DNA from: a virus
IMG/VR virus record: IMGVR_UViG_3300032220_000756
Coordinates: 1 to 43,615 of that record
Strand: one strand, 5' to 3'
Length of the DNA: 43,615 bases
Position numbers and translations under genes: made by a program. Below are positions 8,217-38,661 of this stretch, one piece after another (position 1 is the first letter of the stretch; each line of letters starts with the position of its first letter). Under the pieces are notes generated by a model, which saw only the letters and a program-made list of their open reading frames with translations, had not been told where the DNA came from and made no database searches.

Positions 8217-8291
8217 TGGAGCACCCACCAGGAGTCGAACCTGGACCGGAAGTTTCGAAGACTTCTGTGATATCCGTTTCACCATGGGTGC
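8217..8291 (-). tRNA. tRNA-Arg (TCG)
   Basis: Acceptor GCACCCA/TGGGTGC, D stem GTGA/TCAC, anticodon stem GAAGT/ACTTC with loop CTTCGAA (anticodon TCG), T arm CCAGG-TTCGACT-CCTGG, encoded CCA. It is the last gene of the array and closely similar to the preceding tRNA-Arg(ACG), which suggests duplication and anticodon change. Confidence 0.95.
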
Positions 8292-8294
8292 TTG

Positions 8295-8369
8295 TGGCGG
8301 TCTCTCCAAGAGTCGAACTTGGACTTGAAGTTTCGTAGACTTCCGTGATATCCATTTCACTAAGAGACC
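8295..8369 (-). tRNA. tRNA-Arg (ACG)
   Basis: Acceptor GGTCTCT/AGAGACC, D stem GTGA/TCAC, anticodon loop CTACGAA (ACG) on a GAAGT/ACTTC stem, T arm CCAAG-TTCGACT-CTTGG, discriminator G, encoded CCA. An A34 here normally needs TadA deamination to inosine. It shares the anticodon arm stem with the next tRNA-Arg. Confidence 0.95.
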
Positions 8370-8371
8370 AT

Positions 8372-8447
8372 TGGTGGGCACCGCAGGAATCGAACCTGCC
8401 ACCCCTTGGATGTCGACCAAGTGTTCTAACCACTGAACTAGGTGCCC
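8372..8447 (-). tRNA. tRNA-Val (GAC) with C33
   Basis: Acceptor GGGCACC/GGTGCCC, anticodon stem CTTGG/CCAAG with 7-nt loop TCGACAT, T arm GCAGG-TTCGATT-CCTGC, encoded CCA. Placing GAC at 34-36 makes position 33 a C instead of the near-universal U. The body matches bacterial tRNA-Val(GAC). Confidence 0.85.
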
Positions 8448-8450
8448 TTA

Positions 8451-8527
8451 TGGTCGGGATGACTGGATTCGAACCAGCGACCTCCTGGACCCCATCCAGG
8501 CGCCCTACCAGGCTGGGCCACACCCCG
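8451..8527 (-). tRNA. tRNA-Pro (GGG)
   Basis: Acceptor CGGGGTG/CATCCCG (one G-T), anticodon stem CCTGG/CCAGG with loop ATGGGGT (GGG), T loop TTCGAAT, encoded CCA. It is the first tRNA after the internal promoter at 8541-8569. Confidence 0.95.
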
Positions 8528-8540
8528 ACGATATTAATAC

Positions 8541-8569
8541 AGTATATGTGATTTTGGTTGTAAAATCAA
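8541..8569 (-). promoter_or_regulatory. Internal promoter of the tRNA array
   Basis: TTGATT (8564-8569), 17-nt spacer, TATACT (8541-8546) in the only wide gap (54 nt) of the array. It would transcribe tRNA-Pro, -Val and both -Arg genes separately from the RNase P-like RNA. Confidence 0.55.
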
Positions 8570-8581
8570 CCTATTATATGT

Positions 8582-8656
8582 TGGCGCTCCCACAGAGAAT
8601 CGAACTCTGCTTTTGTGGATGAAAACCACATGTCCTCACCGATAGACGATGGGAGC
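8582..8656 (-). tRNA. tRNA-Glu (TTC)
   Basis: Acceptor GCTCCCA/TGGGAGC, anticodon stem TGTGG/CCACA with loop TTTTCAT (TTC), T arm CAGAG-TTCGATT-CTCTG, discriminator G, encoded CCA. Confidence 0.95.
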
Positions 8657-8658
8657 AT

Positions 8659-8743
8659 TGGTGCGGTCAGAGAGACTCGAACTCTCACGGATTTCTCCAC
8701 ACGCCCCTCAAGCGTGCCCGTCTACCAGTTCCGACATGACCGC
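8659..8743 (-). tRNA. tRNA-Leu (GAG)
   Basis: Acceptor GCGGTCA/TGACCGC, anticodon stem CACGC/GCGTG with loop TTGAGGG (GAG), long variable arm as expected for a class II tRNA, T loop TTCGAGT, encoded CCA. Confidence 0.95.
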
Positions 8744-8750
8744 ATGCAGT

Positions 8751-8825
8751 TGGAGCGGGTGAAGGGAATTGAACCCACGACCTAATCGTTGGCAACGATT
8801 CGCTCTACCACTGAGCTACACCCGC
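8751..8825 (-). tRNA. tRNA-Gly (GCC)
   Basis: Acceptor GCGGGTG/CACCCGC, anticodon stem AATCG/CGATT with loop TTGCCAA (GCC), T loop TTCAATT, encoded CCA. Confidence 0.95.
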
Positions 8826-8831
8826 TTGACT

Positions 8832-8917
8832 TGGTGCCCTGAGAGGGACTTGAACCCCCACACCCTTGCAGGCAATAGATTTTGAGTCTATCATGTCTAC
8901 CATTCCATCATCAGGGC
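8832..8917 (-). tRNA. tRNA-Leu (CAA)
   Basis: Acceptor GCCCTGA/TCAGGGC, anticodon stem ATAGA/TCTAT with loop CTCAAAA (CAA), long variable arm, T loop TTCAAGT, encoded CCA. Its 5' end is only 4 nt after the 3' end of the RNase P-like RNA, so cleavage at this tRNA would also release that RNA. Confidence 0.95.
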
Positions 8918-9113: not shown

Positions 9114-9752
9114 TTATTTGATCAGTTCTGAATAAGCCACAGTTCTCAAGTAAGGCTTGATTTTATGGAAAGATTTTGGAAATCTTTGTTGTGCCTGCTC
9201 ATCACTCACAGACGCAGTAACAATCAAATCTTCACCCAATTTCCAGTTGGCTGGAGTGGCCAATTGATGTTCAGCAGTGATCTGTAAAGAATCCAATACT
9301 CTCAGTATTTCATCAAAGTTTCTACCTGCTGATGCTGGATAGTCCAATCTCAACTTAACTTTCTTGTCTGGTCCTATCACAAACACAGTTCGTACAGTCA
9401 TGGTGTCTGGAGCATTGTCCCGTACCATGCCATACAACAGAGACACTTGTCTGTTGTTATCTGCTATGAGAGGATATTCAGGCAATTCACCTTGAGTCTC
9501 TTGAATGTCGTTCAGCCATTGATCATGATTGTCCAAGTTGTCCACACTCAGTCCGATCACTTGTACTCTGCGTTTTTTAAATTCAGGCAATAGTTTTTGT
9601 AATGTACCCAGCTCAGTGGTGCACACAGGAGTAAAATTCTTTGGATGTGAAAACAACACAGTCCAGTGGCCATTGATGAATTCATAAAAATTAATAAGGC
9701 CATGACTGGTGTCAGCAGTGAAGTTGGGTGCTAGATCATTTATTTGTATCAT
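9114..9752 (-). CDS. 1-Cys peroxiredoxin (Prx6 type)
   Basis: A 212-aa thiol peroxidase that reduces hydrogen peroxide and alkyl peroxides in the cytoplasm. The active site P-K-N-F-T-P-V-C44-T-T-E is complete, and the long C-terminal domain (to about 210 aa, with a G-E-D-L-I-V-T block) is typical of the Prx6/1-Cys group. The resolving-Cys VCP motif of 2-Cys enzymes is absent. AAAGGAG lies 5-6 nt before the ATG. It lies between the tRNA/RNase P promoter and the porin gene and has a separate upstream promoter region (TTGACTTT near 9810). It probably protects infected cells during late infection (inference). Confidence 0.93.
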   Translation of the reverse strand: MIQINDLAPNFTADTSHGLINFYEFINGHWTVLFSHPKNFTPVCTTELGTLQKLLPEFKKRRVQVIGLSVDNLDNHDQWLNDIQETQGELPEYPLIADNNRQVSLLYGMVRDNAPDTMTVRTVFVIGPDKKVKLRLDYPASAGRNFDEILRVLDSLQITAEHQLATPANWKLGEDLIVTASVSDEQAQQRFPKSFHKIKPYLRTVAYSELIK

Positions 9753-9902
9753 AGTTTCTCCTTTTGTTATACTATTAATTTAGTATAGAATACTGCGAAA
9801 GTCAAGAGTCACAAAATAAAAAAGTGAAAAGTTAAAGAATTTTACTAAAAAACAAAATATTTTTTTAATTTTTACCGTAATGTTAAAAAATTATTTTATC
9901 CA

Positions 9903-9930
9903 TTGTGAGGAATGTTTCGATTCCCCACAA
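9903..9930 (-). terminator. Terminator of the porin gene
   Basis: An 11-bp stem TTGTGGGGAAT/ATTCCTCACAA (one G-T) with loop CGAAAC lies just after the porin stop codon; on the minus strand an A/T-rich tract with a six-T run follows about 10 nt later. Confidence 0.6.
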
Positions 9931-9947
9931 CAAATAAACGAGATCAA

Positions 9948-11021
9948 TTAAAATGCGTAATTGATTCCCACAGTCATTAGACTGGGATCTTTGCCCGCAC
10001 TTGGAGCAGTCATACCATTAAGATACATGGTACTGTTGGCATCGTTGTCCACCTGGCTGTAGGCAGCATACACATTGGCACCTGGTGCAAATGTTTTAGT
10101 CACGCCTAGAGTGTAGCCAGTGCCTTGATTGGCAGTGGTTTGAGCACCGTCTTTGGACTGAGCATACACAGCATGAGCAGCCAATCCATTTTCCAAAGGC
10201 ACTCTCACTGAGTACACATTGGCAGTGGATTTCACTGTGCTGGTGGTGGAGTTGTCTCCGTAGATGTAAGCTGCACCCACAACAAACTTACCAAAGTCGT
10301 AAGATCCACCAATGCTCTTGGCATCAGTTTCTCCCACTGAAGTAGTGGCTTGTTTGGTGGCATAACCCACACCCAATTTTGCTGGTCCAACGACATAGTT
10401 GATGGAACCAGAACGTACATCAGCATTGGCGTCAGTGGTGGCTGTGCTAGAATTGCCTGCGTAACCCGCTTGCAGTTGTAGTCCATTCAACACTGGCGAT
10501 ATGTATTTGATCACGTTGCTGGCATCACCACCTATTTCGATAGCTGTGCCGTTCACAGGAAAGTTTGTGAAGTTGCCGAACTGCCATGACAGAGTATCTA
10601 TCTCTGTGGCATTGCTCACGTCAGTGGTTCCCAAACGTATTTCTCCTGCTGATCCTGAAACACCCACAGTGGCTTCACGTGTGAACACCTGTCCTGTGGT
10701 AGTGGTAGAACCCAACGTACCTGTTTGTGGTTTAAGAGCACCTTCCAAATTGAAGTTGAAATTAATACCACCTAGGTCAGGCGAAGTGCCTTTGAAACCC
10801 AAACGGCTGGTGCTTAATCCACCTTCGCTGGCTCTCATCAAGTCACTGGTGCCTGAATCGTATTTCTGCACTCCAGCATCCACGTTGCCGTAGAAACTCA
10901 GTACAGGAGCTGATTTGGTTTGTGCTTTGACAGATTTACCTGACACAGCCAGTATCACTGCCACCAAAATGGCAACAGACACTATCAAACCAATTGTTAT
11001 TTTACTCTTTTTGTTTTTCAT
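9948..11021 (-). CDS. Gram-negative outer-membrane porin
   Basis: A 357-aa protein with a long N-terminal export signal (Lys-rich start, hydrophobic segment about 9-28, then A-Q-T). The mature part begins L-S-F-Y-G-N-V-D-A-G-V and R-L-G-F-K-G-T-x-D-L-G-G, the typical opening of trimeric general porins of the beta/gamma-proteobacterial type. Regular Gly/aromatic beta strands follow, and the chain ends G-I-N-Y-A-F; a C-terminal Phe is the BAM assembly signal. It would form a diffusion channel in the host outer membrane. A porin gene in a phage genome is unusual; it could change nutrient flow or replace the phage receptor (inference). It has its own promoter with a DnaA-like box, AAAGGAG, and a terminator. 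Confidence 0.9.
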   Translation of the reverse strand: MKNKKSKITIGLIVSVAILVAVILAVSGKSVKAQTKSAPVLSFYGNVDAGVQKYDSGTSDLMRASEGGLSTSRLGFKGTSPDLGGINFNFNLEGALKPQTGTLGSTTTTGQVFTREATVGVSGSAGEIRLGTTDVSNATEIDTLSWQFGNFTNFPVNGTAIEIGGDASNVIKYISPVLNGLQLQAGYAGNSSTATTDANADVRSGSINYVVGPAKLGVGYATKQATTSVGETDAKSIGGSYDFGKFVVGAAYIYGDNSTTSTVKSTANVYSVRVPLENGLAAHAVYAQSKDGAQTTANQGTGYTLGVTKTFAPGANVYAAYSQVDNDANSTMYLNGMTAPSAGKDPSLMTVGINYAF

Positions 11022-11623: not shown

Positions 11624-12201
11624 CAGTTCAATTGATACTGCATGTCACCAGCCACCACATAACGATTCTCTTTGCTGGTGCAGATGCCGGGACGGTGCCA
11701 CACATCAGATGGATAGATCAACCATGTGTAAGGTTGGGGAGTGATGTAGAATGTTTCTTTGAGATCTGCCGCAGTGGCAAATTCTGTGCCGGTGGTGTTG
11801 GGATTGGGTTCATCCTTGGGTATGTGAACATAATAGATGCCACTCAGTTTGGGATAGGTTTGGTCTTGATGATGATGGTGCCATAGGCGTTCTCTTTCCA
11901 AATTGTCTCCAGCATTGGTTTGAAAACTCCAAGCATTGATGCCTTTGATCTTGACTTCCTTGCCTATGTAAAAGAAACAGCTCATGATAAAAGTCATACG
12001 CATTTTTAAAAATGTGGCAGTCTGGCGAGCAAATATGTTCTCTTTGGTCTGATACTTGGGAGAATGAGCCTCATCAAAGTAGTTGCCTTTGGCAATGATG
12101 TCCTGTACCGTGTGGATGATGTGCTGATTGTCCTCTGCAGTGATTAAACCTGAATAGTTATACTTGCGAAAGATATCATTGTGTTCAATAATTTTGGTCA
12201 T
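11623..12201 (-). CDS. 2OG-Fe(II) dioxygenase (phage type)
   Basis: A 192-aa protein. W-H-H-H-H-Q-D (107-113) supplies the proximal iron ligands ahead of the S-G-I-Y-Y-V strand, H169 in P-S-D-V-W-H-R is the distal ligand, and R180 in N-R-Y-V-V-A-G-D-M is the 2-oxoglutarate-binding Arg. The sequence is distinct from the other four dioxygenases in the window, so it is probably an independent acquisition. A GTAAATA box (12211-12217) sits 9 nt before the ATG. It lies directly downstream of SufE. Substrate unknown. Confidence 0.82.
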   Translation of the reverse strand: MTKIIEHNDIFRKYNYSGLITAEDNQHIIHTVQDIIAKGNYFDEAHSPKYQTKENIFARQTATFLKMRMTFIMSCFFYIGKEVKIKGINAWSFQTNAGDNLERERLWHHHHQDQTYPKLSGIYYVHIPKDEPNPNTTGTEFATAADLKETFYITPQPYTWLIYPSDVWHRPGICTSKENRYVVAGDMQYQLN

Positions 12202-12225
12202 GGGCTGTTTTATTTACAGTGTGAG

Positions 12226-12660
12226 TTAACTGCTGTGACAGGATTTGACATTCAGTTCAGCATAATGTCGGATGGTGAGTATGAGACTGCCCAAACCATT
12301 CTGTCGCTGTGGTGTGATCAGTTGAGCAAATCCCAATGCAGTGAAATCTTTCAGTTCTATATTGCTCAATGCTTCGTAGCTTTGATTGCCCAATATGTCC
12401 AGCACAATGTGAGTGATACCTTTGGTTATCTGAGCTTCAGCATCAGCCATCAGAGTGAGAGTGTGAGTGTCATATTTGGGTATCAACCACAATTTGCTCA
12501 CACAACCTGGAATAAGAAACTGATCCTGTTTGTAGGATTCAGGCACAGTGTCCAACAGTTGTGCCAATCCAAAGATGTATTCCAAACGATCCATGCCTGA
12601 CAGCAAAGACAATCTTTGACTCCATTCATTCACTTTGGACTGTATATTAACATTCAACAT
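12226..12660 (-). CDS. sufE: SufE-like cysteine desulfurase sulfur acceptor
   Basis: A 144-aa SufE/CsdE-family protein of normal length. In bacteria SufE takes persulfide sulfur from the desulfurase SufS and passes it to the SufBCD scaffold for Fe-S cluster assembly. The active-site loop P-G-C53-V-S-K-L-W matches the family G-C-x-S-x-V/L-W motif; the downstream blocks (A-D-A-E-A-Q-I-T-K-G, L-G-F-A-Q-L-I-T-P-Q-R-Q-N-G-L) match the canonical order, including the S-P-S-R-x-N-G-L-like region. No SufS, SufU or scaffold gene is present, so it must act on host partners. It lies in a minus-strand operon-like run with a dioxygenase. Confidence 0.88.
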   Translation of the reverse strand: MLNVNIQSKVNEWSQRLSLLSGMDRLEYIFGLAQLLDTVPESYKQDQFLIPGCVSKLWLIPKYDTHTLTLMADAEAQITKGITHIVLDILGNQSYEALSNIELKDFTALGFAQLITPQRQNGLGSLILTIRHYAELNVKSCHSS

Positions 12661-12662
12661 GA

Positions 12663-13004
12663 TTATTTTACTGTGTACCTTGATTCAAACTCGTCTTTCC
12701 AGCTGGTAGCCACTCCAAAGTCCTGCTCTTCTTGATACTTTTGATAATCCCAATCCTTGAGTATTTGTTCACAGTTGCCCAATCCCCACTCAACCAAGTT
12801 GGCCTGGGTGATGGCTTGATCTTCTGTGGGCATTATCTGTGAATAGGCATATTCATAACGATTATTTGTAGTGTGACGAAACACATTCAACTCATAAGAG
12901 TCCATCCACATTTTTTTAATCTGTGCTGTGAATTCTCGTTTGGGAGCATCCACACCATGACGCAGACTCCAGTGCTTGTAATATTTAGAACGACCTTGAC
13001 CCAT
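12663..13004 (-). CDS. Hypothetical basic/aromatic protein (113 aa)
   Basis: It starts M-G-Q-G-R-S-K-Y-Y-K-H-W at 13004; an upstream ATG at 13091 is less likely because it would overlap the previous gene by nearly 90 nt. It is rich in Tyr, Trp, Lys and Glu, with no recognised motif. Its TAA lies 2 nt before the SufE ATG region, so it is probably in the same transcript. Function unknown. Confidence 0.55.
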   Translation of the reverse strand: MGQGRSKYYKHWSLRHGVDAPKREFTAQIKKMWMDSYELNVFRHTTNNRYEYAYSQIMPTEDQAITQANLVEWGLGNCEQILKDWDYQKYQEEQDFGVATSWKDEFESRYTVK

Positions 13005-13179
13005 TTTTTTTCTTGCTATAATAATATTTTTTGAACTGTGAATCTTCAAAATACAATTTAAGAAATCTTTTAGAACAGGTCTTTTGTTCAATTATTTCGC
13101 ACAGCTTGTCATAGTGTGCTTGAAGTTTTAACTGTTGGTATTGTGATTGTTTCATATCGCTGATTGATTTAGTCATCAT
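12985..13179 (-). CDS. Small basic helical protein (64 aa)
   Basis: Begins M-M-T-K-S-I-S-D-M-K-Q, with the tandem ATG overlapping the end of the upstream membrane gene. It contains Gln/Lys-rich helical sequence and ends with a Tyr/Lys-rich tail. It overlaps the next gene by 20 nt, consistent with coupling. No family recognised. Confidence 0.45.
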   Translation of the reverse strand: MMTKSISDMKQSQYQQLKLQAHYDKLCEIIEQKTCSKRFLKLYFEDSQFKKYYYSKKKNGSRSF

Positions 13180-18771: not shown

Positions 18772-19764
18772 TTATATATTTGATTCTCTCACTAGATCCA
18801 CAAGTTTTTGAATCATCATGGGTTTGGTTTGTTTGAGTATTCCATGACCCAGATTGAATATGTAAGGATGATCTCGGAATGCTTGTAGATATTTTTTGGC
18901 AGCGGTGCACATGTGGTCCGAATCACCCAATAATTTTTTTGGATCCAATCCACCCTGCATGGGCCAACGACTCAATTGCTGCAGAGCCCATTCAGTGTCC
19001 ATGGTGTGATCCAAACTGATAGCACTGGGATTCACTCGTTCACAGAATTGCAACACCTGCAAGGGTGTGATACCTTTGGGGAAACAGATAATGGGCACTG
19101 TGGGATGACGCATTCTTAATGCTGTGACAATCTGTTGATTGGGTTCTATGCAGTGTCGCATCACTTCCTCGTCTGTTTTGAGAGTGCCTGCATGACTGTC
19201 AAATAGCTGTATCACATCACAACCTGCCAGTATTTGATTGCTGAGATGCTCCACAGTCTGCACAATCAATCGCTGAGTGATGTCTTCCCGTTCTCTGTCA
19301 GTGATGCCTTCTCGATTCAACATGTAGTGCATCAGTGTGTGAGGAGCTCCTGCAAAACCTATAAGACTTTGATGTTCAGCCAATCGCTCTCTGGTGACTC
19401 GGATGCTGCGATACACAGGTGTTAATTTTTTATGAAACTCTGCAGGATCATAATCAAAAAATTCGTCCACATCAAATTCACTCATCTCTGGACCGTGCTG
19501 TGCTATGAACTCTAAAGCCTGTCCCATGGCCCATGGTATTAATAATATGTCGGAGAATATGATGGCAGCATCCAAATTGTAACGACGCATGGGCTGCAGA
19601 GTGATCTCCACCACCGACTCCACATCCAACACCTTCTCCATGAATGGTGTGTTGTTTAAAAAACGATATTCTGGCAGATATCTTCCTGCTTGACGCATGA
19701 ACCACACTGGTTTAGGTTGTGTGATCTTACCCTGCAATGTCTGTAAAAATTTGTTCATCACCAT
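18772..19764 (-). CDS. hemE: Uroporphyrinogen decarboxylase
   Basis: HemE converts uroporphyrinogen III to coproporphyrinogen III, removing four acetate carboxyls, in the cytoplasm. At 330 aa it is slightly shorter than the usual 340-355. Signature blocks are all present: F-M-R-Q-A-G-R-Y-L-P-E-Y-R (22-34), F-S-D72-I-L with the catalytic Asp, G-F-A-G-A-P, F-D-S-H-A-G (188-193), G-G-L-D-P and F-N-L-G-H307-G-I. Its start lies inside the last codons of hemF (GAATGGTGATGA), so the two are translationally coupled. No defect is seen, so it should be active. Confidence 0.96.
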   Translation of the reverse strand: MVMNKFLQTLQGKITQPKPVWFMRQAGRYLPEYRFLNNTPFMEKVLDVESVVEITLQPMRRYNLDAAIIFSDILLIPWAMGQALEFIAQHGPEMSEFDVDEFFDYDPAEFHKKLTPVYRSIRVTRERLAEHQSLIGFAGAPHTLMHYMLNREGITDREREDITQRLIVQTVEHLSNQILAGCDVIQLFDSHAGTLKTDEEVMRHCIEPNQQIVTALRMRHPTVPIICFPKGITPLQVLQFCERVNPSAISLDHTMDTEWALQQLSRWPMQGGLDPKKLLGDSDHMCTAAKKYLQAFRDHPYIFNLGHGILKQTKPMMIQKLVDLVRESNI

Positions 19765-20582
19765 TCTGCTTGGGGAGGCAAGCTCATCAATATAGCTTCC
19801 ACATTACCACCTGTATTTAAACCAAACTGTGTGCCACGATCATACATTAGATTAAACTCCACATATCTGCCACGTTTGCGATTTTGAATCTGTTTGTCTT
19901 TTGCAGTGTATTTTTTGTGCTGATTCTGATCTATCATTTGAAGACTGAGACTATGAAATGCTTCACCCACTTGTTGTATGAACACAAAGTCTCCTATGTA
20001 GGCATTGGGATGACTCAACAGTAAATGATCAAAGAATATGCCGCCTGCACCCCTCACTTCATCACGATGTCGGATATAAAAGTATTCATCACATTGTTTT
20101 CGATATTCAGCATGACTTTTGTGATTGTTCTCGCAAGTTTCTTTCAGAGTGTGATGCCATAGTTCAATGGATTTCGCATTGGGATGACTGGGAGTTTGAT
20201 CCATGCCCCCTCCCCACCAACTCACAGTGGTCTCCAAATATCTTGTGTTGAAATGCATGGCTGGCACATGAGGATTCCTAGGATGAGCCACCACACTGAT
20301 ACCAGTGGCAAAGAATGCACCATCCCGGCCAGCACCCATGACTTGATTGCGATAACGTTCATCAATCACTCCTCGCACAGTGCTCACATTTACTCCTACT
20401 TTTTCAAACACTTCACCACCCTGCATCAGCATCATGACACCACCACCATTGTGAGCTCGGGGTCCACGCTGCCAAGTGGTCTTTTTAAATTTTGTTTTGG
20501 ATTCCAATTGTTGATAATCTTTGCACAGCCTGTCTCGGAGTGTTTCAAACCATTCTCGATTGATTTTTTGAAGATTATCCAT
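19758..20582 (-). CDS. hemF: Oxygen-dependent coproporphyrinogen III oxidase
   Basis: HemF uses O2 to decarboxylate coproporphyrinogen III to protoporphyrinogen IX, directly after HemE. The 274-aa protein carries the family blocks in order: G-G-G-V-M, V-F-E-K-V-G-V-N, A-T-G-I-S-V-V-A-H-P-R-N-P-H-V-P-A-M-H-F-N-T-R, W-W-G-G-G-M-D, C-D-E-Y-F-Y, G-G-I-F-F-D, and the C-terminal R-G-R-Y-V-E-F-N-L-M-Y-D-R-G-T and G-G-N-V-E-A-I-L-M-S-L-P-P. It is first in the hemF-hemE-dioxygenase unit. The TATAAT of its promoter is only 6 nt from the ATG, so the mRNA may be leaderless. Confidence 0.96.
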   Translation of the reverse strand: MDNLQKINREWFETLRDRLCKDYQQLESKTKFKKTTWQRGPRAHNGGGVMMLMQGGEVFEKVGVNVSTVRGVIDERYRNQVMGAGRDGAFFATGISVVAHPRNPHVPAMHFNTRYLETTVSWWGGGMDQTPSHPNAKSIELWHHTLKETCENNHKSHAEYRKQCDEYFYIRHRDEVRGAGGIFFDHLLLSHPNAYIGDFVFIQQVGEAFHSLSLQMIDQNQHKKYTAKDKQIQNRKRGRYVEFNLMYDRGTQFGLNTGGNVEAILMSLPPQAEW

Positions 20583-20682: not shown

Positions 20683-20883
20683 TTATACCACTGCTAGATT
20701 GACAGCAGAAGGACCTTTTGGGCCATTCTCCTCATCAAACATCACAGCGTCACCTTCATTCAGTGTGTCCATGCCTGCGGCTTGAACTGCTGATATGTGT
20801 ACAAACACATCTTTGTGTTCAGTGGTGATGAATCCAAAACCTTTTTGGGTGTTGAACCATTTTACTGTACCTTGTGTACTCAT
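20683..20883 (-). CDS. Cold-shock domain protein
   Basis: A 66-aa CspA-family protein. The RNP1 motif K-G-F-G-F-I and RNP2-like V-F-V-H-I are complete, within the standard G-T-V-K-W-F-N...G-P-S-A-V-N-L frame. These proteins bind single-stranded RNA/DNA and melt mRNA structure. It has a long leader of about 110 nt, typical of csp genes, driven by the promoter at 21001-21029. A late-type TATAAATA on the minus strand also lies in the leader (about 20993-21000). Confidence 0.95.
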
Positions 20884-21057: not shown

Positions 21058-21131
21058 TGGTGCCCCCACCCTGTACTGACCAGGGAACTAACCCTTACCA
21101 TGGGTTTGGTATGCCATTTACCTATAGGGGC
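21058..21131 (-). tRNA. tRNA-Thr (GGT), divergent T loop
   Basis: Acceptor GCCCCTA/TGGGGGC (one T-G), D arm GGTA/TACC, anticodon stem AACCC/GGGTT with loop ATGGTAA (GGT), variable loop of 4 nt, T stem CCCTG/CAGGG, encoded CCA. The T loop is GTCAGTA instead of TTCRANY, and the D loop is only 7 nt, so elbow contacts are weakened. It follows the EF-P unit. Confidence 0.82.
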
Positions 21132-21141
21132 TTGTAAAAAT

Positions 21142-21297
21142 CTAACTGGGTTGATGATCTTTAGTAAAAAGTTTTTTAAAAAAATCAATCACCTTCACAA
21201 TCAAATCCACTATCACACACATGATGGTCACTGACACCAACATCGCCATGCAAATCACAAACCAAACCATATTCCACAAAGTATTCCACATGATCAT
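21142..21297 (-). CDS. Single-span membrane protein (51 aa)
   Basis: M-I-M-W-N-T-L-W-N-M then a long hydrophobic helix rich in Val/Met/Cys, with a basic end (FFKKLFTKDHQ). The ATG overlaps the EF-P stop codon by 1 nt. It lies between efp and tRNA-Thr in one run of minus-strand genes. Function unknown. Confidence 0.55.
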   Translation of the reverse strand: MIMWNTLWNMVWFVICMAMLVSVTIMCVIVDLIVKVIDFFKKLFTKDHQPS

Positions 21298-21860
21298 TAA
21301 TTAATTTTTTTAAGATATTCTTGAGTTATTGTATCCACAAGTATTTTATCACCCTGACTCACAAACGGAGGTACCAGTATCTTAACTCCATTTTGAATGG
21401 TTGCTGGTTTGTAAGAACCTGAAGCAGTTTGTCCTTTGACCACAGAATCTGTTTCAAGCACTTCATATTCCACAGATCTAGGCAGAATAACACTCAATGG
21501 TTTGTCTTGATAAGACTCAATGGTAACTTCTAAATTTTCTTTTAAGAATTTTTCACTGTCTTCCACAAGTGTCCTATTGATTGAAATTTGTTCAAAATTT
21601 TCACTGTCCATAAAAAAGAATTCATCGTTGGATGAATACAAAAATTGAAATTTTTTTTCATCCAGTGTTGCCTTCTCAATGGTTTCGCTTGATCTGAAAC
21701 GTTCGTTGAGTTTTGTGCCTTTGGTAATGCTTTTAAGCTCAACTTGATTGTATGCACCGCCTTTGCCAGGTTTAACTGCTTGACTTTTGAGACATTTCCA
21801 TAAATCATTTTTATGCTCAATGATGTTGCCTGGTTTAACCTCTACTCCTAAAATTTTCAT
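21297..21860 (-). CDS. efp: Elongation factor P
   Basis: A 187-aa EF-P of full length. EF-P enters the ribosomal E site and rescues stalling at polyproline. Domain I has the loop K-P-G-K33-G-G-A-Y with the Lys that is modified in bacteria; L-N-E-R-F-R-S-S-E-T-I-E and F-L-Y-S-S (start of domain II), then V-V-K-G-Q-T-A-S-G-S-Y-K-P-A and V-P-P-F-V-S-Q-G-D-K-I (domain III) follow in order. The start is fixed by an ATGA overlap with the upstream 29-aa peptide. No modification enzyme (EpmA, EpmB, EarP) is seen. A phage-encoded EF-P is very unusual. Confidence 0.96.
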   Translation of the reverse strand: MKILGVEVKPGNIIEHKNDLWKCLKSQAVKPGKGGAYNQVELKSITKGTKLNERFRSSETIEKATLDEKKFQFLYSSNDEFFFMDSENFEQISINRTLVEDSEKFLKENLEVTIESYQDKPLSVILPRSVEYEVLETDSVVKGQTASGSYKPATIQNGVKILVPPFVSQGDKILVDTITQEYLKKIN

Positions 21861-21946
21861 CCTAGCAATATCACAAACACCACTATGAGGAACAGCACTA
21901 TCAGCACCATGGCACAATCTTTGTATTTGTCTCTTTGGAAATTCAT
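21857..21946 (-). CDS. Tiny single-span membrane peptide (29 aa)
   Basis: M-N-F-Q-R-D-K-Y-K-D-C then a Val/Leu/Ile helix. Its ATG is directly adjacent to the TAA of the lipoprotein gene and its TGA overlaps the efp start. The double coupling argues that it is translated. Confidence 0.55.
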   Translation of the reverse strand: MNFQRDKYKDCAMVLIVLFLIVVFVILLG

Positions 21947-22096
21947 TTATTTTGGAAAAGGAATATTTTTAAACACATCCACTATGTTTTCCATAGGAAT
22001 TTTTTCTTTTGGCTTTTCTGTTTGAGTGGTAGTGCTGGAACAATTTACCAAAACAATCAGCATTGACAGTGCTAAAAAACATTTGATTGATCTCAT
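21947..22096 (-). CDS. Small lipoprotein (49 aa)
   Basis: M-R-S-I-K-C-F-L-A-L-S-M-L-I-V-L-V-N-C followed by Ser/Thr-rich mature sequence: a classic lipobox L-V-N-C. It is the first gene of the lipoprotein-peptide-efp unit. The start at 22096 is 4 nt from a TATAAATA box. Probably lipid-anchored in a host membrane; role unknown. Confidence 0.65.
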   Translation of the reverse strand: MRSIKCFLALSMLIVLVNCSSTTTQTEKPKEKIPMENIVDVFKNIPFPK

Positions 22097-22100
22097 ACAG

Positions 22101-22132
22101 TATTTATAGCACTGTTTGGCGCTGGTTGTCAA
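22101..22132 (-). promoter_or_regulatory. Overlapping early (sigma70) and late (TATAAATA) promoter
   Basis: TTGACA (22127-22132), 18-nt spacer, TATAAA; the -10 is embedded in the perfect T4 late octamer TATAAATA (22101-22108). The same site could serve host-type and late polymerase. It reads into the lipoprotein/efp unit. The -35 lies a few bases before the dnaK stop codon. Confidence 0.7.
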
Positions 22133-22135
22133 CAG

Positions 22136-24043
22136 TTATTTGTTGTCTTTGACCTCTGTGAATTCTGCATCCACAGTCTGTGATTTTGGTTGCTCATCAG
22201 TCTGTTTGGCTGACTCTTGTTGAGCTTTGTACACAGCTTCACCCAATTTCATGCTCACTTCTTGCAGAGCACTGGTTTTGGCTTTGATCTCTTCTGTGTG
22301 GTTGCTCTTAACAGCTTCCTTTAAAGACTCTTGAGCTTCTGTGATCTTTGCACGATCTTCTTCGGTGAGTTTGTCACCATGCTCTTTCATACTTTGCTCT
22401 ACAGATGCCAGTGTGCTGTCTGCGTGATTTTTGGCATCCACTTCTGCACGTTTCTTCTCATCGGCTTCCTTATTGGCTTCTGCGTCTTTGATCATTTTTT
22501 CAATGTCTGCATCACTCAAACCTGAGTTGGCTTGTATCTGTATCTTTTGTTCTTTGCCAGTGCCTTTGTCTTTGGCGCTCACATGCACAATGCCGTTGGC
22601 GTCTATGTCAAATGTCACTTCGATCTGAGGTGTGCCTCGGGGCGCTGGTGGTATACCAGTCAATTCAAAATTGCCCAAGAACTTGTTGTCTGTGGCCATT
22701 TGACGTTCACCTTGAAACACTCTAATGCTCACAGCTGGTTGATTGTTTTCGGCTGTGCTGAACACTTGACTCTTTTTGGTTGGAATGGTGGTGTTCTTTT
22801 CAATCAGTCTAGTGAACACTCCACCCACTGTTTCAATGCCCAAACTCAATGGAGTCACATCCAACAACAGCACGTCTTTCACATCGCCTTGTAATACTCC
22901 ACCTTGAATGGCAGCACCCAATGCCACCACTTCGTCTGGATTAACTCCTTGATTGGGTTCTTTGCCAAAAAATGATCGTACTGCTTCAACCACTTTGGGC
23001 ATACGAGTCATACCACCCACCAACACCACTTCTTGAATGTCATTGACACTGACACCAGCATCTTTCAATGCCTGACGACAAGGTTCAATGGTTTTTTGTA
23101 TGAGAGTATCCACCAAACCTTCCAGTTTGGCACGAGTTATCTTCATATTCACGTGTTTGGGACCAGATTTGTCTGCTGTGATAAATGGCAAATTGATTTC
23201 TGTTTGAGTGCTGGATGACAGTTCTATTTTGGCTTTCTCCGCTGCCTCACGCACTCTCTGTATGGCCAATCTATCCTGTGCGAGATCAATGCCAGAGTCC
23301 CGTTTAAATTCTGCTAGGATATGATCTTGAATCACACTGTCAAAATCCTCACCACCCAGTGAAGTATTTCCGTTGGTACTTTTGACTTCGAATACTCCAT
23401 CACCCAACTCCAATATGCTGACATCAAATGTACCTCCACCCAAATCATACACTGCTATGGTCTTGGCACCTTTTTTGTCCATGCCATATGCCAATGCTGC
23501 GGCAGTGGGCTCATTGATAATTCTCAATACTTCTAATCCAGCAATCTTGCCAGCATCTTTGGTGGCTTGTCGCTGTGCATCATTGAAGTAGGCTGGCACT
23601 GTGATCACTGCGTGATTCACTGCTCTACCCAAATATTTTTCGGCAGTTTCTTTCATCTTGATCAGTATGGATGAACTGATCTCTGGTGGTGAATATTTCT
23701 TGTCTCGGCTTTTGACCCAAGCATCACCGTTATCGGCTGCGATCACTTTGTAAGGTAATCTTTGAATATCTTTTTGTAATGCAGGATCATTGAAGGTTCT
23801 ACCTATCAATCGTTTCACTGCAAAGAATGTGTTTTCACCATTGGTCACTGCTTGACGACGGGCACTGTGTCCCACTAGTTTTTCTGATTCAGTGAATGCC
23901 ACTATGCTGGGCGTGGTTCTGTACCCTTCTTGATTCTCTAATACTTTGGGTTTGCCTGCTTCCATGATGGCCACACAAGAGTTTGTCGTGCCCAAATCTA
24001 TTCCTATCACAGGACCATTTATTAATTTTTCTGCGTTTTTCAT
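22136..24043 (-). CDS. dnaK: Chaperone DnaK (Hsp70)
   Basis: A full-length 635-aa Hsp70 with the ATPase domain ([10 protein letters not shown] near residue 14; D-L-G-G-G-T-F-D; the [10 protein letters not shown] adenosine motif), the linker [13 protein letters not shown], the substrate domain and a helical lid that ends E-F-T-E-V-K-D-N-K, as in bacterial DnaK. No gap or frameshift. DnaK refolds proteins with DnaJ and GrpE; neither is present here, so host cochaperones are needed. It could assist assembly or host stress (inference). The ATG is preceded by AAAAGGAG. It is unusual for a phage to carry the complete gene. Confidence 0.97.
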
Positions 24044-25612: not shown

Positions 25613-26299
25613 TTAGTCTCTTTTTGAACCCATCAGTTGCAAAATAGAAACAAATATATTGATAAAGTCCAGATACAATGTAAGAGCTCCCAATGTTCTA
25701 GTTTTAGAACTGTCTGCTCCTTCCTGATATATCTGTTTTAATTTCTGCATGTCATAAGCAGTCAAGCCAGTGAATATGATCACGGCCAACACATTGATCA
25801 CAAAGTTCAACATGGTCATCTGCAACCAAATATTAAAAATACTGGCCACAATTATTCCAATTAAACCCACAAATAAAAATGTACCCAAACCGGATAGATC
25901 TCTACGAGTGGTGTAACCTATGATGGCAAATGTGCCAAACACTATGGCAGAAATTAAGAAGGCCGATATGACACTGTGTGCTGTGTAGATATACAGCAGA
26001 GCACCCATGCTCAAACCTTGAGCAGCGGCGAATCCCATCAACATCCATAGCAGTCCACGATTGCTGAAACGTTCAGCACCAAAACTCATGGCCAACACAA
26101 ATGCCAACGGCGACAGTATGATGATCCAAGACAGTGCACCACCTGCATACAAGAACGGCAGTCTCACTCCGATGTAGGCAAAAAATGCCGACACCAGCAT
26201 GGCTGTGGTCATTCTTGAAAACACATCATTGAAATAGGATCTTAAACCCAGATCAACTGTGGTATTGCCTTGACTTTTAACACCTATCGATGTTTTCAT
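25613..26299 (-). CDS. Bax-inhibitor-1 family membrane protein (YccA/YbhL-like)
   Basis: A 228-aa protein with about seven transmembrane helices and the family opening L-R-S-Y-F-N-D-V-F-S-R-M-T-T-A-M-L-V-S-A. The loop D-M-Q-K-L-K-Q-I-Y and the final L-Y-L-D-F-I-N-I-F-V-S-I-L-Q-L-M-G carry the conserved C-terminal Asp residues. Bacterial relatives such as YccA bind and restrain the FtsH protease; others conduct Ca2+. ATG at 26299 is preferred, with AAGGAG 7 nt upstream. A phage copy could protect phage proteins from FtsH, as in lambda CIII-type strategies (inference). Confidence 0.92.
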   Translation of the reverse strand: MKTSIGVKSQGNTTVDLGLRSYFNDVFSRMTTAMLVSAFFAYIGVRLPFLYAGGALSWIIILSPLAFVLAMSFGAERFSNRGLLWMLMGFAAAQGLSMGALLYIYTAHSVISAFLISAIVFGTFAIIGYTTRRDLSGLGTFLFVGLIGIIVASIFNIWLQMTMLNFVINVLAVIIFTGLTAYDMQKLKQIYQEGADSSKTRTLGALTLYLDFINIFVSILQLMGSKRD

Positions 26300-26312
26300 A
26301 TTTTTCTCCTTG

Positions 26313-26618
26313 TTATATTGATAAGGCTCCGTGCCCAATCAAATCTCTAAAAAACAAATACACTGAAGCACCCATGATGATCAGTGCTGCTATATTTATC
26401 AGTATCACAATGTAGCTCACTACCAAACTAATAATGGTCATGCTGTGATACATGCCTCCTGTGCGTACAGTGCGTGATTGAGTTTGAAATCTCAAATGCA
26501 AGTGCCCCAACACTATGGCAATGATCTGTAAAAAGAATGGTATGATGAAAGCAGTGATCAATCCCAATAGGGAGAACACAACTGATGTCACTGCCAATAG
26601 ATTGAAATTTTCTTTCAT
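26313..26618 (-). CDS. Three-helix membrane protein (DUF4190-like)
   Basis: A 101-aa protein with hydrophobic segments at about 9-38, 61-80 and 82-92. G-L-I-T-A-F-I-I-P...I-A-I-V-L-G-H-L-H-L fits the DUF4190 pattern (G-H-x-x-L). Role unknown. It lies 14 nt upstream of the Bax-inhibitor-1 gene, so co-transcription is likely. Confidence 0.65.
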   Translation of the reverse strand: MKENFNLLAVTSVVFSLLGLITAFIIPFFLQIIAIVLGHLHLRFQTQSRTVRTGGMYHSMTIISLVVSYIVILINIAALIIMGASVYLFFRDLIGHGALSI

Positions 26619-37654: not shown

Positions 37655-37909
37655 ATGAAAAAACAGACTAGATCCATTCTGCAGGAATTGAACCACATGT
37701 ACAGGTCCAAAGACCTGGATCATATTGTGGAAGCCAAAGGCAGCAACATCATTGAGAGCGCTATCAATTTTTTCCAAATGATCAATGAAAAGTACGATCC
37801 CGAAACTGCTCAAGAGTTGGAACGCAGATTCATCAACTCCATCAAAAACGGCGACAGCAAGAAATTCAAAATGGGAGTGAAGAAGATCCAAGAAGGTGAG
37901 AGTGACTAA
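37655..37909 (+). CDS. Small helical protein (84 aa)
   Basis: M-K-K-Q-T-R-S-I-L-Q-E-L-N-H-M-Y, then acidic helices and a Lys/Glu tail (KKIQEGESD). It is first in the module that encodes the nucleotidyltransferase and ligase-like proteins, with a 1-nt overlap. Possibly an accessory factor. Confidence 0.65.
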   Translation: MKKQTRSILQELNHMYRSKDLDHIVEAKGSNIIESAINFFQMINEKYDPETAQELERRFINSIKNGDSKKFKMGVKKIQEGESD

Positions 37910-38661
37910 TGATGCTCAAAGAAGGTGGCAACATTTTCAAAGGCTCTCAAGGTGAGTTGCTCACAGGCAGAATCAATCAAGCAGATGTGTCTCCCACAGT
38001 GAAATGGTTGGAAGGCATCACAGGACTGCCATTGCAGGATGGCATGTTGGGCACCACAGGCAAGGCTCCCACCAGCGGTGACCTGGATCTCAGTGTGGAT
38101 GAAAACAAAATCAGCAAAGACGAATTGGTGGCAAAGTTGTCTCAGTGGGCACAATCAAAAAAACAAGATCCCAAACAGTGGGTGCGCAAGAGTGGCATCT
38201 CTGTGCATTTCAAAACTCCCATTGCAGGTGATGAGAAAAAAGGTTTTGTGCAGACAGATTTTATGTTTGGAGAACCCACATGGCAAAAGTTCAGTCTACA
38301 GGGTGGCTTGACCGGCAGCGAATACAAAGGCATGGATCGTCACATACTGCTGGCCAGCATTGCCAAAGCATTGGGATATCGTTGGAGTCACAACTATGGT
38401 TTGCTGAATCGTGAGAGTAATCAGCCAGTCAGCAAAGATCCTGACAGAATTGCTCAACTGTTGTTGGGTGTGGATCACACAGCTGAAGATTTAGCGAGTG
38501 TAGAAAGCATTCATCGAATCATTCGTGGCAGATCTGATTATGAAAAATTAGTGGCAGATGCTGTGGAATCATTTGCCAAATCAGGAAAGCGATTACCTGA
38601 ACACACAGTGGAAGGCAGCAATGTGTGGTTTAGAAACATGATGAATGTGGTGGGCAGATGA
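37909..38661 (+). CDS. Nucleotidyltransferase-fold (pol-beta superfamily) phage protein
   Basis: A 250-aa protein with M-L-G-T-T-G-K-A-P-T-S-G-D58-L-D60-L-S-V-D, the Gly-rich turn followed by D-x-D of the minimal nucleotidyltransferase fold. A later V-Q-T-D-F-M-F could supply the third carboxylate. The N terminus G-G-N-I-F-K-G resembles a conserved opening in T4-like phages. It overlaps the next gene by 4 nt (ATGA), so the two are made together. Substrate unknown; it could add nucleotides to RNA or modify proteins. Confidence 0.75.
   Translation: MMLKEGGNIFKGSQGELLTGRINQADVSPTVKWLEGITGLPLQDGMLGTTGKAPTSGDLDLSVDENKISKDELVAKLSQWAQSKKQDPKQWVRKSGISVHFKTPIAGDEKKGFVQTDFMFGEPTWQKFSLQGGLTGSEYKGMDRHILLASIAKALGYRWSHNYGLLNRESNQPVSKDPDRIAQLLLGVDHTAEDLASVESIHRIIRGRSDYEKLVADAVESFAKSGKRLPEHTVEGSNVWFRNMMNVVGR

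Follow-up and report, generated by a model that had tools for sequence, protein, structure and literature searches.

A 43,615-base IMG/VR virus record, analysed here over its whole length and referred to as the window, carries an efp gene listed as an open reading frame of 187 codons (positions 21297-21860, minus strand) and predicted to encode a genuine, intact bacterial orthologue of elongation factor P (EF-P). This factor aids ribosomes through hard proline stretches and decides how well these are made. The explanation that best fits our results, and which we hold to be probable, is that a T4-like phage took efp from the SAR11-LD12 group and kept it, and that the gene sustains phage translation with an EF-P whose loop has a lysine at its tip.

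The protein has the domain order expected of EF-P (KOW-like, OB and C-terminal), and each domain scores far over its Pfam gathering cut-off (EFP_N, 68 bits; EFP OB, 71; C-terminal, 79). Its loop, V29-KPGKGG-A36 in the context AVKPGKGGAYN, has K33 as the tip residue and P31 in position -2 (P31-G-K33). An earlier sequence-only reading of this DNA had called the gene a full-length EF-P with the loop KPGKGG, which these results bear out. The phage protein keeps all 37 columns that show no variation among 106 cellular EF-Ps and all 50 that show none within SAR11 EF-Ps, and the closest solved structures are all EF-P, with matches at 1e-38. Two related types were considered and rejected: the EfpL/YeiP paralogue, which has an arginine tip and an extended loop where the phage protein has a lysine and a loop of EF-P length, and the EarP-rhamnosylated type, defined by an arginine tip together with EarP.

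The window (GC about 41%) covers part of the genome of a T4-like phage of freshwater SAR11 bacteria (LD12/Ca. Fonsibacter). Its proteins include a DUF6267/phrog_455 protein with relatives in T4-like cyanophages, an HNH protein and tail-type phrogs, several 2OG-Fe oxygenases, S-adenosylmethionine decarboxylase, SufE, DnaK, HemE and HemF, and a cold-shock protein, a porin and a peroxiredoxin. No capsid gene and few structural genes were found in the 43,615 bases, so that the phage nature of the record rests on the gene neighbourhood, the IMG/VR call and the relatives. Related IMG/VR contigs have gene blocks in common with the window. One of them, of 148 kb (G208), has the dnaK-AdoMetDC-AlgH-aminotransferase block and codes for a T4-type DNA polymerase, a baseplate protein and NrdA, and T4 Gp23 is encoded in three larger records that have dnaK or hemF in common with the window.

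Two genes and one tRNA speak to the host. The DnaK proteins of the window and of four related contigs (L082, L083, L084 and L085) form one clade, which joins DnaK of LD12/Fonsibacter with support of 99/98; EF-P and the neighbouring DnaK of the phage thus both branch with LD12/Ca. Fonsibacter. The tRNA-Gly (gcc) gene at 8750-8827 (minus strand) provides a host signature, showing 100% identity along 78 bp to Fonsibacter-group genomes (G002, G006, G008, G015 and G037) and to one other SAR11 genome (G032). It was not found in the LD12 genome G001, which may be incomplete.

Several further features of the window were recorded. A cluster of eight tRNA genes occupies 8217-8917, and host-like genes for a 1-Cys peroxiredoxin, a porin, SufE and a Bax1-I family protein lie at 9114-11021, 12226-12660 and 25613-26338. 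The jumbo phages Atu_ph07 and Phosso encode relatives, at about 37%, of the protein encoded at 37909-38661, which hints that the phage is akin to very large T4-like phages. Phage DnaK (Hsp70) was seen in 78 IMG/VR contigs (L082-L159). The hemE and hemF genes are adjacent (18772-20582) and, because 26 IMG/VR contigs also have hemF homologues, haem genes appear to be a recurrent trait of these phages.

That efp reached the record through host contamination or chimeric assembly is extremely unlikely. Such artefacts do occur: the annotated deposited 'phage' EF-P record that was examined, L294 (CAKLQF020000018.1, deposited as Acinetobacter phage), is Acinetobacter chromosome around efp, which lies between kamA and cstA, with rpmE beside them, and EF-P matches among deposited 'phage' records do not exceed 40% identity. 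The nearest cellular genes have 73-84% protein identity to it (L002 the highest, at 84%), and against L003, the nearest host gene, dS outside the loop is 0.87 and dN/dS is 0.10. No host neighbours of efp were found in the window, and the GC3 of the gene (0.27) is unlike that of LD12 efp (0.17-0.22), most window genes having 0.40-0.55. Both flanks, together with the promoter, are homologous to those of a sister phage (L082). Contamination, which the sequence-only reading had itself raised against its claim, is unlikely given this divergence (dS about 0.9, dN/dS about 0.1) and the phage-conserved flanks, and it fails on composition too. As efp is known from one phage contig, selection was gauged from the host-phage comparison, by which the gene appears to be kept under purifying selection. 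Like other auxiliary genes, it lies between phage-conserved genes and is of cellular origin.

The gene belongs to a compact unit on the minus strand. In order, this consists of a promoter-like element, TTGACA-N18-TATAAATA (22101-22132), 4 nt upstream of a lipoprotein ATG; a small lipoprotein of about 49 aa with a lipobox-like LVNC (21947-22096, within an open reading frame at 21947-22132, the likely ATG being at 22096); a hydrophobic peptide of 29 aa (21857-21946), encoded between the lipoprotein and efp; efp itself; a 51-aa membrane peptide (21142-21297); and, last, a tRNA-Thr (ggt; 21058-21131). The stop codon of the 29-aa peptide overlaps the efp start in ATGA, and the efp stop overlaps the start of the 51-aa peptide in TAATG. 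The unit of EF-P with a lipoprotein, two tiny peptides and tRNA-Thr is thus as first described, and adjoining genes overlap or abut, as in a tight operon.

The promoter motif TTGACA-N18-TATAAATA has one match in the window against 0.01 expected, and its core, CAAACAGTGCTATAAATA, is identical in the sister contig L082. The suggestion of a combined early/late promoter likewise holds, on sequence evidence only, in the form of an element that is both sigma70-like and T4-late-like. Expression would be early through the former and late through the latter at the same spot, and efp would probably be co-transcribed with the lipoprotein and the small membrane peptides. In three phages the -10/late element stands 4-5 nt before the lipoprotein ATG (window 22092-22108, L082:11940-11960 and L083:11945-11962), which suggests a leaderless mRNA.

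Comparison with the sister phages points to a slot of variable content. It is bordered upstream by the phage dnaK gene (22136-24043, minus strand; 92% to L082 and 81% to L083) and downstream by the cold-shock protein gene (20683-20883, minus strand; 97% to L082); HemE and HemF of L082 are 89% and 82% identical to those of the window. The surroundings of the slot match as well, for L082 shares the promoter block and has homologues of the lipoprotein, in the corresponding position, and of the 51-aa peptide (for each of the two, 0 of 2000 shuffles scored as high), followed by tRNA-Thr (12937-13012). Where the window has EF-P, however, L082 encodes an FTR1-family iron permease (12104-12685; 39 bits, cut-off 25), the 51-aa peptide lying downstream of it. 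For the 29-aa peptide no homologue was detectable in L082 (1260 of 2000 shuffles scored as high). In L083, dnaK, the lipoprotein gene and hemF follow in direct succession and the slot is empty. EF-P is therefore one cargo among several that this slot takes up, an exchangeable gene between dnaK and csp.

A slot whose content varies among close relatives (EF-P in the window, FTR1 in L082 and nothing in L083) could also gather random host genes, EF-P being a neutral or transient passenger of little benefit, and no other EF-P was found in 50 related records. We judge this improbable: dN/dS is about 0.1, every invariant residue is intact, the gene overlaps tightly with both neighbours and its GC3 has shifted toward that of the phage.

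In ten Fonsibacter-group genomes (G002-G009, G015 and G037; efp loci L003-L010, L172 and L171), the loop NRGNLR replaces KPGKGG through clean substitutions (K33 to N, P31 to R and G35 to R), and the changes K9R, P10V and H16Y are linked with it. KPGKGG is kept in the phage, in L002/G001 and in all other SAR11 EF-Ps examined. A compensated frameshift was discarded as the source of NRGNLR because the codons align in frame. A second, K-loop efp was likewise set aside for nine of these genomes, with a single efp match in each of G002-G009 and G015; G037 gave two matches. Asparagine is among the natural tip residues of EF-P (PMC11611912); in one survey 2.23% of EF-Ps had it there, in every case together with proline at -2, and the Escherichia coli protein lost its activity through K34N (PMC6544042). 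Since its asparagine tip lacks a proline at -2, the Fonsibacter loop falls outside the described asparagine class and apparently constitutes an undescribed class of EF-P loop.

In a tree of full-length EF-P the phage gene branches basally within LD12 (99/92), without a firm order with respect to L002. At third codon positions it sides with Fonsibacter L003 over L002 by 35 to 15, and it is by this measure closest to the Ca. Fonsibacter genes (L003 and those of nine further genomes), from which it differs in keeping KPGKGG and in lacking their linked changes. In domain I, the phage protein and L002 differ at 3 of 64 residues. A test for a mosaic, with an L002-like domain I and Fonsibacter-like domains II-III, gave p 0.001 for all sites and p 0.46 for third positions; linked amino-acid change accompanying the host loop switch explains the all-site signal as well as an intragenic mosaic does. 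Given the third positions and the tree order, the phage would have acquired efp either earlier than the switch of the host loop or from a K-loop relative outside the genomes sampled.

These comparisons bear on what the gene is for. If the host were a K-loop LD12 lineage (like G001/L002), the phage gene would merely add to an EF-P of a type that the host already has, a dose booster keeping elongation up during host shutdown, as has been proposed for the EF-Tu, EF-G and EF-Ts of huge phages, and the loop mismatch with Fonsibacter would be irrelevant. L002, with the same loop, the highest amino-acid identity (84%) and a nearly matching domain I, lends this some weight, but third positions favour L003 and the tRNA-Gly is identical to that of Fonsibacter-group genomes and was not found in the possibly incomplete G001. 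We regard a dose effect alone as unlikely. The gene may instead supply a lysine-type EF-P to cells whose own EF-P, with N33 at the tip and no proline at -2, rescues a different or weaker set of stalls, so that phage messages would gain what the host factor does not provide, a serious possibility that we would still not call probable. It draws on the NRGNLR loop of the ten genomes, on the loss of activity of the E. coli protein with K34N (PMC6544042) and on related phages that are denser in PP than SAR11 hosts. Against it, the host may not be an N-loop strain, relatives without efp manage, and the PP density of Fonsibacter is not clearly lower than that of K-loop SAR11 (0.78 versus 0.76-1.10), so that the N-loop protein may work well in its own ribosome. 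In a more specific form, put forward tentatively, the phage would deliver the ancestral lysine-tip EF-P into an asparagine-tip host and so restore rescue at stall motifs present in phage proteins, which the host proteome now avoids or deals with in another way.

The PP content of the proteins was also measured. The window has 1.47 PP per 1000 aa, where 1.49 would be expected from its proline content, and related phages without EF-P have 1.38. SAR11 hosts have 0.86; the phages as a group are higher (p about 1e-9), their proteins being about 1.6 times denser in PP than those of the hosts. An enrichment specific to the phage with efp was not found, its density being no higher than in relatives without the gene. 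The idea that EF-P favours Pro-rich phage proteins consequently gains no specific support. These phages may all have a need for EF-P, and a general need does not explain the gene in this phage, the density being common to relatives without efp.

The sequence-only reading had also described the loop as modified, which our searches do not support. EpmA (TIGR00462) and EpmB (TIGR03821) reached the cut-off in none of 28 SAR11 genomes, and the window proteins that were scanned include no EF-P modification enzyme. A lysine tip with proline at -2, as in beta-lysylated EF-P, is present, but EpmA and EpmB were not found. EarP was not found in 12 genomes, the control genomes being without a match too. 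A DHS homologue is present in all 12 SAR11 genomes tested; that of Ca. Fonsibacter is SpeY, a homospermidine synthase (PMC9992855), and DHS was rejected as the modifier. With no known EF-P-modifying enzyme found in SAR11, K33 most likely stays unmodified, or else an unknown agent modifies it.

Phage copies of EF-P had been called very rare, and the searches fit this. There is no EF-P in PHROGs, no further one in IMG/VR with two query designs, none in the 50 related virus records (a search that had no internal positive control) and, among deposited phages, only the distant matches described above. Among cellular proteins, the lysine-type EF-P of SAR11 LD12 (for example L002) is like that of the phage in domains, length, KPGKGG, the -2 proline and invariant residues; the phage copy differs in lying in a phage operon and in its shifted GC3, and known modifiers were not found in the candidate hosts.

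Translation factors in phages are already known. Huge phages and pelagimyophages carry EF-G, EF-Tu, EF-Ts, IF1, IF3, RF, RRF, S21 and L7/L12, likewise host-derived and presumed to keep up or redirect translation in infected cells (PMC7162821, PMC7029224); EF-P differs from these in acting on proline stalls and not on general elongation, and the main text of neither paper names it. Giant viruses (five Imitervirales and two Algavirales) also encode an orthologue of the EF-P/IF5A family, but these are eukaryotic viruses and the protein is eIF5A, of which that study found no homologue among phage proteins (PMC9992855). The nearest described phages are the fonsimyophages (PMP-D; PMC7029224), which are T4-like, have a putative freshwater SAR11 host by tRNA match and carry an AdoMet decarboxylase gene (speH). 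The window has both the tRNA match to Fonsibacter and a speH-type gene, but was not filed with PMP-D because its GC is about 41% against roughly 32-35% for PMP genomes tabulated in that paper, which does not mention EF-P. Positions 22136-43615 have no near megablast match among deposited phages, a collection that may not include PMP-D genomes. The literature searched offered no example of a phage EF-P with a loop type unlike that of the nearest hosts, nor any report of EF-P in a phage.

Taken together, our results favour acquisition of efp by a T4-like phage of LD12/Ca. Fonsibacter and near kin from that group, after which the gene would have entered the exchangeable slot between dnaK and csp and stayed under purifying selection. 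EF-P in general enters the ribosomal E site and helps peptidyl-tRNA-Pro react (PMC6544042). The phage protein would accordingly enter the E site when host ribosomes stall at XPPX motifs, and lysine 33, most likely unmodified, would there position the P-site tRNA-Pro. The presumed benefit is that translation of phage proteins is sustained when host factors are limiting or of the other loop type.

If the phage EF-P is active, proline stalling can limit a phage of very abundant freshwater bacteria. A phage EF-P with a lysine tip and a host EF-P with an asparagine tip, otherwise similar, would make a natural test of the role of the loop where known modifiers are lacking. If replacement of one EF-P type by another is the true reading, the host loop, with its asparagine tip, no -2 proline and no known modifier, would represent an undescribed EF-P class.
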